Source: Bacterioplanes sp. | GTDB lineage: Bacteria > Pseudomonadota > Gammaproteobacteria > Pseudomonadales > Oceanobacteraceae | Assembly (NCBI GenBank): GCA_014859445.1 | Contig: JACUUC010000003.1 | Location: 1 to 64,000, forward strand | Length of the DNA: 64,000 nucleotides | Direction of reading: 5' to 3' | Shown: positions 22,609 to 48,335 of the stretch, in pieces | How the letters are laid out: the number at the start of each line of letters is the position of its first letter | How positions within the stretch are numbered: the stretch's first letter is position 1 | Notes under the pieces: generated by a model | Database searches by the model: none | What the model was told of the DNA's origin: nothing | Seen by the model: only the letters and a program-made list of their open reading frames with translations | Made by a program: the position numbers and the translations under genes

Positions 22609-22625
22609 TTGTTATGTTATAACAA
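22609..22625. promoter_or_regulatory. Zur-box-like operator before the COG0523 gene
   Basis: TTGTTAT and ATAACAA form a perfect 7-bp inverted repeat with a 3-nt centre (GTT), 24 nt before the start. It matches the gammaproteobacterial Zur box, whose core is TGTTATANTATAACA. A similar but even more typical box lies at 24557-24569. Zinc-loaded Zur should repress here and release the gene under zinc limitation (inference). Confidence 0.75.
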
Positions 22626-22648
22626 ATAATTCGTAGTGAGACACCGTG

Positions 22649-23860
22649 ATGAACAACACCCCCGATCAACGCCTACCAGTGACCGTTTTATCCGGTTTTC
22701 TGGGCGCAGGTAAAACCACTCTGTTAAATCATCTGCTCACCAATCGCGAACAACGCCGTATTGCCGTGATCGTGAATGACATGAGCGAAGTCAACATCGA
22801 CGCCGCCTTTGTCCAAGACGAAGTGCAGCTCAATCGTGCCGATGAAAAACTCATCGAAATGAGCAACGGCTGTATTTGCTGCACGCTGCGCGAAGATTTG
22901 CTGATTGAAGTGCGCAAACTGGCTGAATCCGGTCGTTTTGACTACCTCGTCATCGAGTCCACCGGCATCGCCGAACCCTTACCCGTCGCCGAGACCTTTA
23001 CCTTCACCGACGAACAGGGCGTGAGCCTGTCCGACATCGCTCGTCTCGACACCATGGTCACCGTGGTCGATGCCGTGAACTTTTTAAACGACTTTGACGA
23101 AGCGCGCAGCCTGCAAGAGACCGAAGAGTCCCTCGGCGAAGACGACCACCGCAGCGTGGCGGACTTACTCATCGATCAAATCGAGTTTTGCGACAAACTG
23201 CTGATCAGCAAAACCGACCTCATTAATGAAGAACAGCTGCAACGCCTACAGGCGATTTTACGCAGCCTCAATGCCGATGCCGAAATCATCCCTATGGCCA
23301 AAGGCCAAATCGAATTGGCGCGCATCTTAAATACCCACAGCTTCGACTTTGAGCGTGCCGCACAAGCACCGGGTTGGCTGAAAGAGCTGCGTGGCGAACA
23401 CACGCCCGAAACCGAAGAATACGGCATCAACAGCTTTGTCTATCGTGCTCGCCGTCCGTTTCACCCACAAAAATTTTGGGATTTTCTGCACCAAGACTGG
23501 CGTGAAGGCAAATTGATACGCTCCAAAGGCTACTTTTGGCTGGCGACACGCCCCCACTTTGCCGCGCAATGGAGCCAAGCAGGCGGCATTGCACATTACG
23601 GCTTTGCAGGCATGTTTTGGAAAGTCATACCGGAAGAACGCTGGCCTCAAGATGAAGAGTCACTGGCGTACATTCGAGAAAAATGGCAAGAACCCTTTGG
23701 CGACATGCGTCAAGAACTGGTGTTCATCGGCCAAGGCTTAAACCAAGCTCACATTGAACAACAGCTCGATGACTGCCTACTGAATGACGACGAATTACTG
23801 GCCGGTAAAACCACTTGGCAAACCTTGCCCGATCCGTTTCCGGCATGGGAGGACGCATGA
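22649..23860 (+). CDS. COG0523 (CobW-type) GTPase, zinc metallochaperone
   Basis: This 403-aa G3E GTPase starts at ATG 22649 (a GTG directly before it is an alternative). It has Walker [16 protein letters not shown], the metal-binding CxCC motif in [13 protein letters not shown], Walker B-like [10 protein letters not shown], the guanine motif SKTDLI and a C-terminal CobW_C domain (about residues 265-395). Members behind Zur boxes, such as ZigA and ZagA, move zinc to client proteins during zinc starvation. The next gene overlaps its stop (ATGA), so the two are translationally coupled. The zinc role is inferred from the box and neighbours. Confidence 0.9.
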
Positions 23861-24480
23861 GTATCGCTCACGTTCACATGGGAGACGACTGGCAAGCCTT
23901 AGCCAGTATTTACCAACCCAACATCAATGGCAGCGTGGCACAAAACATGATGCCACTACTCGGTGACAGTGCTGCACTGAATGAAGCCATACAGCGCCTG
24001 CAAACCACTATCCATTCGCCGGATATTCGCTTGCACTGTGCTCTCGATGATCTGCCTCAAGCACTCATTGATGCGTTACCAACCGGCAATGGCATGGCCG
24101 AATTGGCACGCGCCATACACACCATCAGCGATGCCTTTTGCATCCTGTTTGAGTGCGATTCGGTGGCATTGCGGTTATCGCGTTTGAACAAAGCCATGTG
24201 TCCCAAATTTCACGTCGACCACATCCCGGTGCGCTTAATTTGGACGCTGGCCGGCCCCGGTACCGAGTGGCTGAGTGAAGACAACGCTGATCGCAGCCAA
24301 CTGGGCACACCGGGCGATGCGTGCCTTTGCCCCGGCGCCATACAGCAATTACAAGCCGGTGACATTGCCCTGATGAAAGGCGAAGGTTGGGAAGGCAACG
24401 AAGGCTTTGGTTTTATCCATCGTTCACCTGCAGTGAGCAGCCCCGAACCGCGCTTAGTACTCACCCTCGACCTTGCCTGA
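23857..24480 (+). CDS. DUF1826 protein, possible Fe(II)/2-oxoglutarate-type oxygenase
   Basis: This 207-aa protein starts at ATG 23857, overlapping the COG0523 stop by four bases. DUF1826 genes are known to sit beside Zur-controlled COG0523 genes; no function is established to my knowledge. The sequence shows [20 protein letters not shown] with His119 and Asp121, then [12 protein letters not shown] and FIHRSP with His188, and Arg199 eleven residues later. The order HxD...H...R is what Fe(II)/2-oxoglutarate oxygenases use to bind iron and co-substrate. Six cysteines are also present (61, 95, 100, 115, 156, 158). Oxygenase function is my inference; a plain metal-binding cupin-like protein is the alternative. 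Confidence 0.7.
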
Positions 24481-24556: not shown

Positions 24557-24569
24557 GTTATAATATAAC
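24557..24569. promoter_or_regulatory. Zur-box-like operator before the His-rich lipoprotein gene
   Basis: GTTATAATATAAC is a perfect 13-bp palindrome, identical in form to the core of the gammaproteobacterial Zur box, and lies 55 nt before the ATG of the next gene. It may control the lipoprotein and the TonB receptor behind it. Confidence 0.8.
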
Positions 24570-24624: not shown

Positions 24625-26052
24625 ATGAACACATCTCGTACTCACTTTCCGGCTAAATCGCTGCTGGTCTTGGCGATTAGTGGCGCCTTGGTCGCGTGTG
24701 GCGGCAGTAGCAGCAGTAAAAAAGACGAACACGATCATCAACACGATCATGATGACCATGCAGGCCGTTTACTGTTCTCTGTCAACAATAACGACACCTT
24801 GTTTGTGTACGACGAAGCCGAAAATGAGTTTGACGATATTGGTCGTGTCACTGACAAGGCAGCAACCTTGGTATTAGCGGATAACGGCCTGAGCGCGGCG
24901 GTATTAGCGGGAACTTCACTGAATATTGTTTTCTCTGGTTTGCATGACGATGAACACGATCATGACGAAGAACACGGTCATGACGACGAACACGATCATG
25001 ATGAAGAACACGATCATGATGAAGAACACGGTCATGATGAAGAACACGATCATGATGAAGAACACGATCATGATGAAGAACACGATCATGACAACGAACA
25101 CGATCACGCCGAACTGCTAGCCATCACACTAGATTCAGTAACCAAAGTCATTGCCACACGCGGTCATTTTTCAGCACTCAGCAACGGTGCCACGCAACTG
25201 CTCAATAGCGACGACATCGAAAATCCAATGTTGGCTTTTGAAACAGCCATCACGACACCCGCTAGCCAAACGTACCCTGGCATCGTATTGGATGCAGAAC
25301 ACCGTGTGTTCTTCGCGGATAATAATGCGTATGTGTATGACGGCATGGATGAAGAAGCCACGCTCGCTTGTGCAAACCCAACTCACCATGCCGAAGCCGG
25401 TGAGCTGACCGTTATAAACTGTGGCGGTACCGCCAAATACGTTGTGCTCGAAGCCCACGGTAATCATCACCACATTTACACGGGCGATGTAGCAGATCTT
25501 TCTGCCACCAACCTAACCAACCTGACCAGCAATGGTCATGACATCGTGGCATGGACCAGCAGCAACGCATGGATCATTGCGATGGATGAGCATGATGACA
25601 GCCACACACATGACATGGTAAGCATACAAGCGGCGAATGACTCGTTAACGGTTGAAGCCAGTGCATTAACATTGCCTGCACTAAATGATGCAAGTATTTG
25701 TCAGGCGGCCTTTGCCACTGAGGATAAAGACACCTTGGGCGTACTGACCAGCAATGGCCGTTTGCACCTAATCAACGTGGAAGACGATAAGAAAAATCGT
25801 ACCCTGGAGCTAGACAACACCAACACCGACTGCAACTCATGGCATTTGGCCGCAGGTGCGGAAGCGTTTTTGGTTGCTAACACCGTTGAATCAAAACTGT
25901 ATTTGATCGACGCTCACGATGGTCCGTATCACATTCACAGCCGCATCAACGATAGCCGCATCAGCGAATTAGCTCACATGGTGTACATGCATGTGTCTCA
26001 TGACGACCACGATGACCATGACCATGACGATCACAGCGGCCACGACCACTAA
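24625..26052 (+). CDS. Histidine-rich lipoprotein, likely periplasmic zinc-binding propeller protein
   Basis: This 475-aa protein has a lipoprotein signal ending in LVAC (Cys25). Three His/Asp-rich stretches follow: KKDEHDHQHDHDDH near the N-terminus, a long run at about residues 107-161 made of EHDHDE units, and the C-terminal tail (HDDHDDHDHDDHSGHDH). Between them, repeated blade-like segments (LLFSVNNNDTLFVYD, HRVFFADNNAYVYDG, GVLTSNGRLHLINV, SKLYLIDAHDGP) suggest a seven-bladed beta-propeller. This recalls the periplasmic zinc chaperone AztD, but that likeness is from memory and unaligned. With the Zur box before it and a ZnuD-like receptor after it, it probably captures or buffers zinc. 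Confidence 0.7.
   Translation: MNTSRTHFPAKSLLVLAISGALVACGGSSSSKKDEHDHQHDHDDHAGRLLFSVNNNDTLFVYDEAENEFDDIGRVTDKAATLVLADNGLSAAVLAGTSLNIVFSGLHDDEHDHDEEHGHDDEHDHDEEHDHDEEHGHDEEHDHDEEHDHDEEHDHDNEHDHAELLAITLDSVTKVIATRGHFSALSNGATQLLNSDDIENPMLAFETAITTPASQTYPGIVLDAEHRVFFADNNAYVYDGMDEEATLACANPTHHAEAGELTVINCGGTAKYVVLEAHGNHHHIYTGDVADLSATNLTNLTSNGHDIVAWTSSNAWIIAMDEHDDSHTHDMVSIQAANDSLTVEASALTLPALNDASICQAAFATEDKDTLGVLTSNGRLHLINVEDDKKNRTLELDNTNTDCNSWHLAAGAEAFLVANTVESKLYLIDAHDGPYHIHSRINDSRISELAHMVYMHVSHDDHDDHDHDDHSGHDH
24952..25107 (+). repeat. 18-bp in-frame tandem repeat encoding EHDHDE
   Basis: Eight full 18-bp units of the type GAACACGATCATGATGAA plus a 12-bp partial unit. Units differ at a few sites, mainly GAT/GGT (Asp/Gly) and the last codons. 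Since the unit is a multiple of three, copy-number changes by slippage would lengthen or shorten the metal-binding stretch without breaking the frame. Confidence 0.95.
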
Positions 26053-26090
26053 GATCGGCTACTGCTTTAAGTGGTAATCCAGTAAACTCC

Positions 26091-26110
26091 GGGCCAGTAT
26101 TCACTGGCCC
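26091..26110 (+). terminator. Hairpin between lipoprotein and ZnuD-like genes
   Basis: GGGCCAGT and ACTGGCCC form a perfect 8-bp stem with a 4-nt loop, 38 nt after the lipoprotein stop. A run of T begins only about 15 nt later, at the receptor's start region. It may be a leaky terminator that lowers receptor expression, or an RNA-stability element. Confidence 0.45.
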
Positions 26111-26130
26111 TTCGCCGTTGTAGGTTTTTT

Positions 26131-28245
26131 ATGTTTTCGCTTGCCTTTATTCGCCCGTCAAAACAGCCATTGTTGTTCGGCCTGTGCGCGCTGCCTATGC
26201 TGTCCGTTGCGCATACCGTCGATTTGGATACCGTCGTGGTCAGTAGTGCGGGGCAGAACTCCGTGTACGACGTTGCGCAACCGGTCAATGTACTGGGCAA
26301 AGACGCCATTGATGCCAACCCCGGCACGACGTTGGGTACGTTGCTGAACAACACACCGGGGATTGCCAACGCCGCTTTCGGTGCGGGCGTGGGTCGTCCG
26401 GTAATTCGTGGCATGAGCGGCAGCCGTGTGAAAATACTGGTCAACGGTAGTGACAGTGCCGATGTGTCGGCCATGAGTTCCGATCACGCGCCCATGGTCG
26501 AAACATCGAGCGCTGAACAAGTGGAAGTCATTTATGGTCCAGCAACGCTGATGTACGGCGGTAGCGCCATTGGCGGTGTCGTGAACGTGATTGATCGTCG
26601 CATTCATGAATTGCCCGACGACGGCATACGTGGCGAAGTGGTGTACAAAGGCAGCAGCAATGACAAAGGCTACAATACCAATGCCTTGCTGGATATGGGA
26701 CATGGCAACTGGACATTGCACCTTGATGGGTTCAAACGCGATACCGCCGATTATGCCAGTGGCGAACGTGGGCGCGTGCCTGCCAATGCCAATCGTGGCC
26801 GCATTGCCAACAGCGACAGCAGCGCGCAAGGCGGCGCCATTGCCCTCAGTTGGGCCGATGGCGTGAATGGTTTTATTGGCGGCAGCATCAGCACCCTCGA
26901 TTACGACTACGGTGTGCCCAATCTGAACAACGACGGTTATCGGGTGATTCCCAAGCAAGTGCGTTACGACCTAAAAGGCGCTTGGCGTCCCGACCCTAGC
27001 AGGGCTTGGGGCTGGTTAGAAGAATGGCGCACCGAGCTATCCTTTAATGATTATGAACACGCCGAAACCGAACCGGGCATGGACGTGGGCTTTTTCGACC
27101 AAGAAAGCTGGGAGTTGAGAAGCGTATTGCGTCACGCACCCATCGGTCGCTGGCAAGGCACCGTTGGGATTCAAGCGAAGTACAACACCCTTGGGCTGTG
27201 CCACAGCCATGACGGCTGCGACGGCGTGCCAAACTACAGCAATACCAATTGGGATGGCTCTAAAGGCACCAATCTTGACTTAATAAATGGCTATTTATTT
27301 TCTCACGACACACCCATGCCCCTCACCGAGACACAACAACTCGGGCTTTTTGTGGTGCAACAACGTGACTGGCAACAAGGCACATTAGAGTTAGGCGCAC
27401 GCTTTGATCAAGTAACCATTCAATCCGATCCAACTCCCATTCGCGTTGCGTATCGCCAGCAACGGGATTATTACGACGACGTGACCTTTACGCCCATGAC
27501 CTTATCGGCAGCGGGCACATGGATTTTGTCCGAGCAACAACGCCTTGGATTAAGTCTTGCTCGCGTGCAACGCGCTCCCGAAGCCACCGAGCTGTTCTGG
27601 AATGGCGATCACCATGCCACGTTTTCCTTCCAACTCGACAACCCCGACCTCGATCTCGAAACCGCCTACACTTTGGATGTGAACTGGCTCTATCAAGGGC
27701 AACACGATCAACTGCGCGTCGCACTGTTTTATTACCGCTTTCAAGATTACATTTACAACGACATGAAAGGTTTTACAGACCCTTTTGGTCATGGATCAGA
27801 TGTCTACCGCCACGAACAAGCCGATGCGCGCTTTCGGGGCGCGGAATTCAGCTGGCAACACGACTTTAGCGACCGTTGGCACCTAGACCTCACAGCCGAT
27901 GTGGTGCAAGCGGAAAAAACCAATGGCGATTCACTACCGCGCACACCACCCGCCAGCGTATTACTGGCCATGAACTACGAATGGAACCGTTGGGATGCAC
28001 GCATCGAAAGTAAATGGGTCGATGCACAAAATGCCACAGCCGAAAACGAACAAGCCAGCCAAGGCCATACGTTACTGAATGCACGCATTGCTTATCAACA
28101 GCGGTTTGCTCACAGTGATTTGATGCTGGCATTGGCCATCGACAACATCACCGATGAATACGCCATTAACCATGTGTCGTACCTAAAATACGCTGCACCC
28201 ATGCCCGGTCGTAATGTACTATTGAGCACACGCTGGCGTTTTTAA
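26131..28245 (+). CDS. znuD: TonB-dependent outer-membrane receptor, ZnuD-like
   Basis: This 704-aa TonB-dependent receptor has a signal peptide (to about AHT, residue 28), a TonB-box-like LDTVVVSSAG, a plug domain with RPVIRGMSGSRVKILVNG and VEVIYGPATLMYGGSAIGGVVNVID, and a 22-strand barrel ending in terminal Phe (LLSTRWRF). The plug, with SDHAPMVETSSAEQVEV, resembles ZnuD of Neisseria and relatives, which imports zinc; a loop rich in His, Cys and Asp (LCHSHDGCDGVPNYSN, about 357-372) could capture metal. It shares the Zur-box region with the His-rich lipoprotein. Zinc specificity is inferred; copper, nickel or haem are alternatives. Confidence 0.82.
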   Translation: MFSLAFIRPSKQPLLFGLCALPMLSVAHTVDLDTVVVSSAGQNSVYDVAQPVNVLGKDAIDANPGTTLGTLLNNTPGIANAAFGAGVGRPVIRGMSGSRVKILVNGSDSADVSAMSSDHAPMVETSSAEQVEVIYGPATLMYGGSAIGGVVNVIDRRIHELPDDGIRGEVVYKGSSNDKGYNTNALLDMGHGNWTLHLDGFKRDTADYASGERGRVPANANRGRIANSDSSAQGGAIALSWADGVNGFIGGSISTLDYDYGVPNLNNDGYRVIPKQVRYDLKGAWRPDPSRAWGWLEEWRTELSFNDYEHAETEPGMDVGFFDQESWELRSVLRHAPIGRWQGTVGIQAKYNTLGLCHSHDGCDGVPNYSNTNWDGSKGTNLDLINGYLFSHDTPMPLTETQQLGLFVVQQRDWQQGTLELGARFDQVTIQSDPTPIRVAYRQQRDYYDDVTFTPMTLSAAGTWILSEQQRLGLSLARVQRAPEATELFWNGDHHATFSFQLDNPDLDLETAYTLDVNWLYQGQHDQLRVALFYYRFQDYIYNDMKGFTDPFGHGSDVYRHEQADARFRGAEFSWQHDFSDRWHLDLTADVVQAEKTNGDSLPRTPPASVLLAMNYEWNRWDARIESKWVDAQNATAENEQASQGHTLLNARIAYQQRFAHSDLMLALAIDNITDEYAINHVSYLKYAAPMPGRNVLLSTRWRF

Positions 28246-32374: not shown

Positions 32375-32404
32375 TGACGAGCGTTGCTCGGTGATGCTTT
32401 GATA

Positions 32405-32476
32405 TCGCTCGGCCGTGTTTTAACGGTACTTTGACATCGCTCGGCCGTGTTTTAACGGTGCTTTGACATCGCTCGG
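32405..32476. repeat. 32-bp tandem repeat, about 2.3 copies
   Basis: The unit begins TCGCTCGGCCGTGTTTTAAC and recurs at 32405, 32437 and 32469 (the last copy is cut after 8 bp). Units are nearly identical, with no spacers. Origin unknown. Confidence 0.85.
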
Positions 32477-32589: not shown

Positions 32590-32633
32590 GTCAGCTCACC
32601 GTTTCAATACCATCGAGCTATTTCAATAACAAC

Positions 32634-32975
32634 GAGCGATGTCTGCAAAACAGCGTAAAGCAGCAATACCGCGCCATGATTCTCAGAGCTGACCGTGTGC
32701 GCCAAGGATGGCGCACTCGAACCTCCACGGAAGGATTCACGGCGAGTCAGCGAGTGAAACAAGGCAACGTGTTGATGGGCTCTAGCAAATTCAACATGGC
32801 AAGCGAGCGATGTCTGCAAAACAGCATAAAGCAGCAACACCGCGCCATGATTCACAGAGCTGACCGTGTGCGCCAAGGATGGCGCACTCGAGCCTCCATG
32901 GAAGGATTCACGGCGAGTCAGCGAGTGAAACAGGGCAACGTGTTGATGCGCTCTAGCAAATTCAACATGGCAACG
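32634..32975 (+). repeat. 171-bp tandem duplication with CTCGAG hairpin repeat, copies 3 and 4
   Basis: Unit 1 spans 32634-32804 and unit 2 32805-32975, both beginning GAGCGATGTCTGCAAAACAG. They differ at only a few bases. Each carries the GTGCGCC/GGCGCAC hairpin, CTCGAG (or CTCGAA) and ATTCACGGCG. The start of a third unit's end piece (CAACGTGTTGATG) follows directly. Confidence 0.9.
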
Positions 32976-47822: not shown

Positions 47823-48335
47823 ATGATGTTGTCCTTTCGATCGGCATTCACCTTGACGGTCTGCATCGCCTTACCGTATGCGCCCATGGCGCATTCCACG
47901 AACCACAATCACTCAAGCCCTGATCACTCAAGCCCTGATCACTCAAACCACGACAGTGCGGCACACCATCATGCCAGCACCATGACCGTCACGAATGCCA
48001 AAGTTCGCCAGCCGATTCCTGGTCGCACGATGAGTGCGGCGTTTATGCAAATCAGTAACCAAAGCCAACAGGACATCGAATTGGTCAGCGCCCGTGCGGA
48101 TTGGAGTGAGCGCATCGAAATTCATACACACTTGCACGAAAATGGCGTGATGAAGATGCGTGAAATCGAGTCATTGCCCATTGCTGCTGGCAGCAGTGTG
48201 ACCTTACAACCCGGTGGTTTGCACCTGATGCTGTTCGGTTTATCGCCCAATTTGTCAACCCGCTTACCGCTGGAGTTGTGTTTTAGCGATCAGCACTGCA
48301 TCACGATAGAGGCCGAGCTGTACGACCCGCGCTGA
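47823..48335 (+). CDS. PCu(A)C-type periplasmic copper chaperone
   Basis: This 170-aa exported protein delivers Cu(I) to cytochrome c oxidase in family members. After the signal peptide (to about AHS) comes a His/Ser/Asp-rich stretch (residues about 24-50) built from 15-bp DNA repeats encoding SSPDH. The PCu(A)C domain has the motif H(M)x10Mx21HxM: IHTHLHENGVMKM followed by GLHLMLFG. GGAG precedes the start. Alone on its strand; the neighbouring der gene converges. Confidence 0.88.
   Translation: MMLSFRSAFTLTVCIALPYAPMAHSTNHNHSSPDHSSPDHSNHDSAAHHHASTMTVTNAKVRQPIPGRTMSAAFMQISNQSQQDIELVSARADWSERIEIHTHLHENGVMKMREIESLPIAAGSSVTLQPGGLHLMLFGLSPNLSTRLPLELCFSDQHCITIEAELYDPR

Follow-up and report, generated by a model that had tools for sequence, protein, structure and literature searches.

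Lipoproteins encoded beside a TonB-dependent receptor are familiar from TbpB and SusD, and we know of no such lipoprotein partner for the ZnuD of Neisseria. To our knowledge, the route that zinc takes across the periplasm after its release by a TonB-dependent receptor is open. The closest described counterpart of the protein considered here is AztD, the zinc metallochaperone of the AztABCD system (PDB 6ck1, 6cmk, 6n01), which has a beta-propeller fold. According to PMC6689063, AztD contains a disulfide (Cys214–Cys231 in P. denitrificans), three pore histidines that make up site 1 (His124, His167 and His218) and a site 2 formed by His99, His102 and Asp104 on the hairpin of blade 2 together with the C-terminal His408; in a docking model, site 2 is positioned at the acceptor cleft. 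The same source describes AztD proteins as predominantly periplasmic in Gram-negative bacteria, and its section 6 names an ABC transporter, Fur and CobW, but no TonB receptor, as neighbours. In PMC7463823, binding by AztD depends on its His-rich motif at the N-terminus, and transfer does not. Zinc limitation in Paracoccus induces aztD and also a separate TonB receptor (PMC5387054).

The window, by which we mean the whole stretch of 64,000 nucleotides analysed here, contains a gene for a histidine-rich lipoprotein that is flanked by genes for ZigA and a DUF1826 protein on one side and for a ZnuD-like TonB-dependent receptor on the other (Table 1). The receptor gene starts 78 bp after the lipoprotein gene. 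Its product has ZnuD (4rdr, the closest solved structure) as its best PDB match, with an E value of 5.9e-59, followed by OprC at 2.4e-12; against the NCBIfam ZnuD model it reaches 284.9 bits, under the cut-off of 950. Together with the Pfam domains and the adjacency of receptor genes in relatives described below, the ZnuD match supports the placement of the lipoprotein gene in a TonB-receptor operon, as an earlier note on this DNA had proposed. The lipobox cysteine, Cys25, is invariant in the family alignment and is followed in the window protein by Gly, which we take, per the sorting rule, to direct the protein to the outer membrane. No Rfam families and no tRNAs were found in the 64-kb window.

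Table 1. Features of the lipoprotein locus, with positions numbered along the window
Feature	Position	Strand	Basis
Second Zur-like box, 1 mismatch	22611..22623		22 bp upstream of the ZigA gene
ZigA, zinc metallochaperone GTPase (COG0523)	22646..23860	+	NCBIfam NF038288, 707 bits (cut-off 600)
DUF1826 protein	23815..24480	+	Pfam PF08856, 169.8 bits
Zur-like box GTTATAATATAAC	24557..24569		Exact consensus match, 55 bp upstream of the lipoprotein gene
AztD-like beta-propeller lipoprotein (predicted), 475 aa	24625..26052	+	ORF; profile and fold comparison with AztD
Lipobox LVAC, residues 22-25 (L22-V-A-C25), Gly after Cys	24688..24699	+	Sequence
N-terminal His/Asp tract, residues 33-46, 5 His	24721..24762	+	Residue count
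Repeat loop rich in His and acidic residues (107-161); 19 of its 55 residues are His	24943..25107	+	Array, alignment
Cys249, counterpart of AztD disulfide cysteine	25369..25371	+	Alignment, 18/18 family and 8/8 AztD rows
Cys266, counterpart of other AztD disulfide cysteine	25420..25422	+	Alignment, 18/18 family and 8/8 AztD rows
Family motif DAHDGPYHIH, residues 429-438	25909..25938	+	Two family alignments
C-terminal His/Asp tract, residues 457-475, 7 His	25993..26049	+	Residue count
GC-rich hairpin between lipoprotein and receptor genes	26091..26110	+	Fold of 26053-26130: -26.3 kcal/mol, z -3.0
ZnuD-like TonB-dependent receptor	26131..28245	+	Pfam TonB receptor and plug

To locate possible Zur operators, we scanned the 2.89-Mb genome with GTTATANTATAAC, used here as our Zur operator consensus. 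Seven sites with at most one mismatch were recovered; the reversed control pattern also yielded seven, so that the number of boxes is no evidence, and what counts is their position and conservation. The box ahead of the lipoprotein gene is the only exact match to GTTATANTATAAC in the genome. Among 20 relatives, 13 carry a box with at most one mismatch within 160 bp upstream (0.015 expected from shuffles), and the other seven have none under the same limits. Judging from these sites, Zur probably regulates the lipoprotein gene under zinc starvation. The genome also contains a zur-like gene divergent to znuA on contig C5, and a single match to the ZnuA Pfam family, which scores 205 bits by the NCBIfam ZnuA model. 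Elsewhere in this genome, a Zur-like box precedes FolE2 and then a thrS-like gene, typical zinc-sparing genes (L103, C1:70722), and another precedes a gene for a bicarbonate transporter (Sbt_1, 367 bits) and, next to it, one for a carbonic anhydrase (L104, C27:25706), as if bicarbonate import backed up a zinc enzyme in starvation. Because His-rich tracts bind several metals, nickel, cobalt or copper might be handled here instead of zinc. Zinc is nevertheless indicated by ZigA, DUF1826, the ZnuD-like receptor, the Zur-like boxes and, behind a further box, FolE2; we consider a different metal very improbable.

Folding of the spacer was extended from the window to eight further loci. A GC-rich hairpin is seen in all nine (window, L079, L081, L082, L088, L093, L094, L096 and L112), with z at or below -2 in six and about -0.2 in three; in L081, L093, L094 and L096 it is followed by a U-rich stretch. 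The hairpin may act as a leaky terminator giving more lipoprotein than receptor.

The lipoprotein had been described as propeller-like in the earlier note, and structure prediction bears this out. An AlphaFold2 model based on an alignment of four sequences (pLDDT 73.7, pTM 0.73; the five models span 58.3-73.7) was compared with the PDB by Foldseek, and the top nine chains are all AztD (E 3e-15 to 2e-9). VIA-align gives Z scores of 32.4, 31.8 and 31.7 for three AztD entries (335-340 residues, 3.0-3.3 Å), with cd1 nitrite reductase as the next entry at Z 23.0. Profile comparison leads to the same protein: a family profile of 18 rows, none of them AztD, aligned by hhalign with a profile of eight AztD-type sequences at 99.0% and E 7e-18. 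After removal of the signal, repeat and tails, the comparison still returned 96.4%, with a score of 75.3 over 314 columns. For the trimmed profile, column-shuffled controls scored 13-17 (eight listed of 20) and the reversed control 14; 18 other ORFs picked up by the AztD model, mostly propeller-like, scored 9-24, and single AztDs 21-41. Counting against the relationship, single-sequence searches with the lipoprotein found no AztD, and the NCBIfam AztD model (NF038015, 400-bit cut-off) has no match in the window genome. When a profile of the family by itself was run against the PDB by hmmsearch, AztD ranked first, with an E value of only 0.022; an apparently stronger match at E 3e-8 was discounted, as its alignment had included the AztD-type row L026. 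The case for AztD therefore rests on hhalign, Foldseek and VIA-align. In a tree of 39 proteins, 19 AztD-type rows separate from 20 rows of the present family with 100/100 support. On the predicted fold and the profiles, the lipoprotein is thus a divergent relative or sister of AztD. Low Pfam and NCBIfam matches of the whole lipoprotein (DNA_pol_phi, EbpS and others) track the acidic, His-rich repeat and were rejected.

Alignment of the two families indicates which features of AztD have been kept and which lost. The disulfide cysteines are retained in all rows of both alignments (18 family, 8 AztD), with the same spacing of 17. Further likenesses to AztD are the His-rich termini, the zinc-regulon neighbourhood and, in a number of genomes, a shared position next to ZigA and DUF1826. 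By contrast, the site-1 histidines are found at each of the three positions in 8/8 AztD rows and in 0/18 family rows, and the site-1 motifs are absent from 20/20 family members while present in 19/19 AztD rows. With all three pore histidines replaced and the NCBIfam AztD model not reached, we rejected an assignment to AztD proper, and the lipoprotein should not be credited with AztD's high-affinity site in the pore. The repeat, which had been placed in the middle of the propeller-like lipoprotein, proves on alignment to be an insert that takes the place of the AztD site-2 hairpin. This insert is His/acidic and rich in candidate ligands. Unlike AztD, the window protein is a lipoprotein, its gene is followed by that of a TonB-dependent receptor instead of being a neighbour of AztC, and it has a new invariant HxH near the C-terminus. 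Here, Asp429, His436 and His438 are invariant across the family within a motif DxHDGxxYHxH, a possible replacement metal site. As site 2 of AztD joins the termini and the hairpin, the His tracts of the lipoprotein would come together on one edge.

The loss of the site-1 ligands and the disorder of the His tracts in the model would also suit a zinc buffer or sink, in which these tracts bind many zinc ions weakly and store or sequester them, with no hand-over to ZnuA. We keep this alternative mainly because the finding for AztD, that its His motif at the N-terminus matters for binding and not for transfer (PMC7463823), makes buffering the more natural role of such tracts. Starvation control of the Zur type and the pairing with a receptor are more suggestive of uptake than of storage, however, and the site-2 region lies near the modelled docking face of AztD (PMC6689063); we therefore regard storage as somewhat unlikely.

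The in-frame 18-bp repeat encoding a histidine comb, the principal observation of the earlier note, is confirmed. Tandem Repeats Finder delimits an array at 24943-25106 with a period of 18, 9.1 copies, 92% matches and a score of 258. Read in register (24952-25113), its units encode EHDHDE five times and EHGHDD, EHGHDE, EHDHDN and EHDHAE once each, and four of the nine are identical in DNA. Codons for the same residue one unit apart (a lag of six codons) agree in a fraction of 0.92 over 39 comparisons. Random synonymous codons would give 0.53 (sd 0.08; 0/2000 reach 0.92), and codons shuffled within the region 0.67 (0/5000 reach 0.92). Agreement so far above synonymous expectation argues for duplication of DNA, beyond selection for the same residues, and the 18-bp repeat is a genuine one of mutable type. 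In the AlphaFold2 model, the encoded loop joins strands 98-103 and 163-169 and is for the most part disordered or modelled with low confidence. Histidine accounts for 51 of the 475 residues, 19 of them in the loop, and the His-rich stretches previously remarked on at both ends are indeed present (Table 1). Other repeats in the window comprise a perfect tandem array at 47908-47946, with 2.6 copies of a 15-bp unit, a 32-bp repeat of 2.5 copies at 32397-32476 and a 171-bp direct repeat of 2.0 copies (95%) at 32633-32973, the latter two between acyl-CoA dehydrogenase-like and enoyl-CoA hydratase-like ORFs (named by eye).

Matches to the lipoprotein occur in 32 of 44 genomes of the same taxonomic family, and not every match is a relative. 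Two (L023 and L027) are, by eye, CDF-type transporters that match via His-rich loops only; three (L028-L030) were set aside with matches confined to the His-rich stretch, and L026 was set aside as AztD-type. Among the loci reported, 23 were accepted as relatives (L002-L022, L024 and L025) besides the window, to which L110 and L121 add two from another family of the same order, where 2/6 genomes matched. A search for related loci with the single protein found none. In 24 of 25 relatives, a receptor gene adjoins the lipoprotein gene downstream and shares its strand, and the remaining locus lies at a contig end; the pairing is seen in 19/20 of L079-L098 (L095 being the contig end), in 4/4 of L110-L113 and in L121. 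One lipoprotein gene, that of L088 (G043:C10), is broken into ORFs of 231 and 182 aa, although the neighbouring receptor gene is open; an assembly error or decay would account for this.

Such strict pairing of lipoprotein and receptor genes could also be expected of a surface-exposed capture lipoprotein that faces outward and presents zinc or zinc-bearing ligands to the receptor, in the manner of TbpB or SusD, whose folds and ligands, as generally described, differ from those considered here. In keeping with this alternative, the genome has a weak match to the SlipAM (surface lipoprotein assembly) domain, at 28.7 bits for a cut-off of 22, yet the gene is on a different contig. The nearest relatives, the AztD proteins, are moreover predominantly periplasmic in Gram-negatives (PMC6689063). 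We think outward capture unlikely; the lipoprotein would more probably act behind or at the receptor.

In the 18 members that could be aligned, the length of the insert ranges from 8 to 55 residues, and several relatives have short loops, the shortest (L012) without any His; a long comb is thus not essential to the family. Arrays are present in the same loop in other lineages, with units that differ from that of the window: 18 bp in L004 (3.1 copies, 94% matches), 18 or 21 bp in L006, 15 bp in L007 (3.9 copies, 72%) and 12 bp in L005 (2.7 copies). In L110 the array is perfect and comprises 10.2 copies of a 9-bp unit. Supported branches of the tree place L004 and L006 each with array-free relatives; the tree is used here for these positions and not for a count of array origins, as rows without an array had been assigned to no group. 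The window genus is represented by one genome, and the evidence for variation in unit number comes from a homologue, that of L121 and L123, the latter being the L110 gene in another locus. These two loci belong to two genomes of one genus, from two congeneric species, and pairwise alignment of their genes shows 1228 of 1257 aligned bases to be identical (97.7%), with an indel of 45 bp, or five 9-bp units, in the homologous loop as the only gap. In-frame change of copy number, which the earlier note had anticipated as possible without a frameshift, is therefore directly seen, in a homologue.

These data also bear on whether the comb matters at all. The range of loop lengths, the perfect 9-bp array of L110 and the 45-bp difference between congeners resemble plain slippage, such that the repeat might be a neutral product of slippage in a tolerated, disordered loop, with function residing in the propeller and the C-terminal motif alone. 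But several lineages have arrays in this one loop, built from different units, and His, Asp and Glu are abundant in almost every loop, including short ones; we hold neutrality to be possible, if doubtful.

Outside the present family, 13 further loci in this order (L125-L137), with matches chiefly in the N-terminal part, encode AztD-type proteins that are lipoproteins by eye where read. They share with the window protein the fold family, by sequence, and an outer-membrane partner gene, but differ in keeping both sites, the site-1 and site-2 (HGDH-like) motifs being present in 11/11 tested. A gene for an outer-membrane protein adjoins in 13/13; the partner is a TonB receptor in nine (a weak match, 109-116 bits, in seven) and a His-rich protein of the 384-aa type in four, and these four loci also contain ZigA or DUF1826. 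In those loci that have a TonB receptor, the AztD gene comes second, whereas in the window the lipoprotein gene comes first. The order ZigA-DUF1826-AztD is found in L038 and L132, and in Salipiger aztD lies beside zigA and DUF1826. The pairing of AztD-type proteins with outer-membrane receptors thus looks general in the order, with the present family as a branch without site 1. The proposal of an AztD-like chaperone moved to a TonB-receptor operon consequently holds for the AztD-like fold and the receptor operon; it fails in that the protein is not AztD proper, and in that AztD-type lipoproteins beside outer-membrane receptors are too widespread in the order for a one-off move. In L038, L039, L129, L132, L134 and L137, a His-rich protein of outer-membrane type (~384 aa), with no Pfam match, lies near the AztD-type lipoprotein, and L038 and L039 also contain the start of an apparent ZnuA-like gene. 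This suggests that the ~384-aa protein is another outer-membrane partner, of a kind that Pfam does not identify.

Taken together, the results lead us to favour, with moderate confidence, an outer-membrane propeller lipoprotein that is derepressed through Zur along with its ZnuD-like receptor, and that takes up zinc behind or at the receptor and hands it on to ZnuA. On zinc starvation, Zur would release the lipoprotein and receptor genes from repression. Zinc would enter through the receptor and, once released by it, the flexible His/Asp/Glu tracts of the lipoprotein would catch it, hold it loosely and pass it to the ZnuA of the window genome. In the course of divergence, pore site 1 of AztD would have been lost and the site-2 hairpin would have become a long, disordered histidine comb, whose length changes in either direction, by whole codons, through tandem duplication. 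Zinc binding, the direction of transfer, the partner and the effect of repeat number are here all putative, being deduced from genes and their predicted products. A more specific version, to which we give only tentative credence, makes the system a dedicated zinc relay in bacteria of this order, from the TonB receptor through the AztD-like lipoprotein to ZnuA, with the docking hairpin as a contingency locus. If this were true, the number of comb units, and hence zinc capacity, would shift by replication slippage with the reading frame intact. Overall, the lipoprotein is best read as an outer-membrane protein that relays or buffers zinc behind the receptor and has a histidine comb of mutable length.

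No description of a pair of AztD-like lipoprotein and TonB receptor was found in the titles and abstracts of the open-licence PMC papers that our searches listed. We regard the protein as a conserved, well-placed AztD-like lipoprotein of the zinc regulon, whose variant form and partnership we did not find described. The receptor-chaperone pair is a concrete candidate for the zinc step across the periplasm, in cultured bacteria such as Thalassolituus marinus. In addition, the natural series of loop lengths, which includes two congeners whose genes differ in length by five units only, makes the relation between His-repeat number and metal capacity testable.
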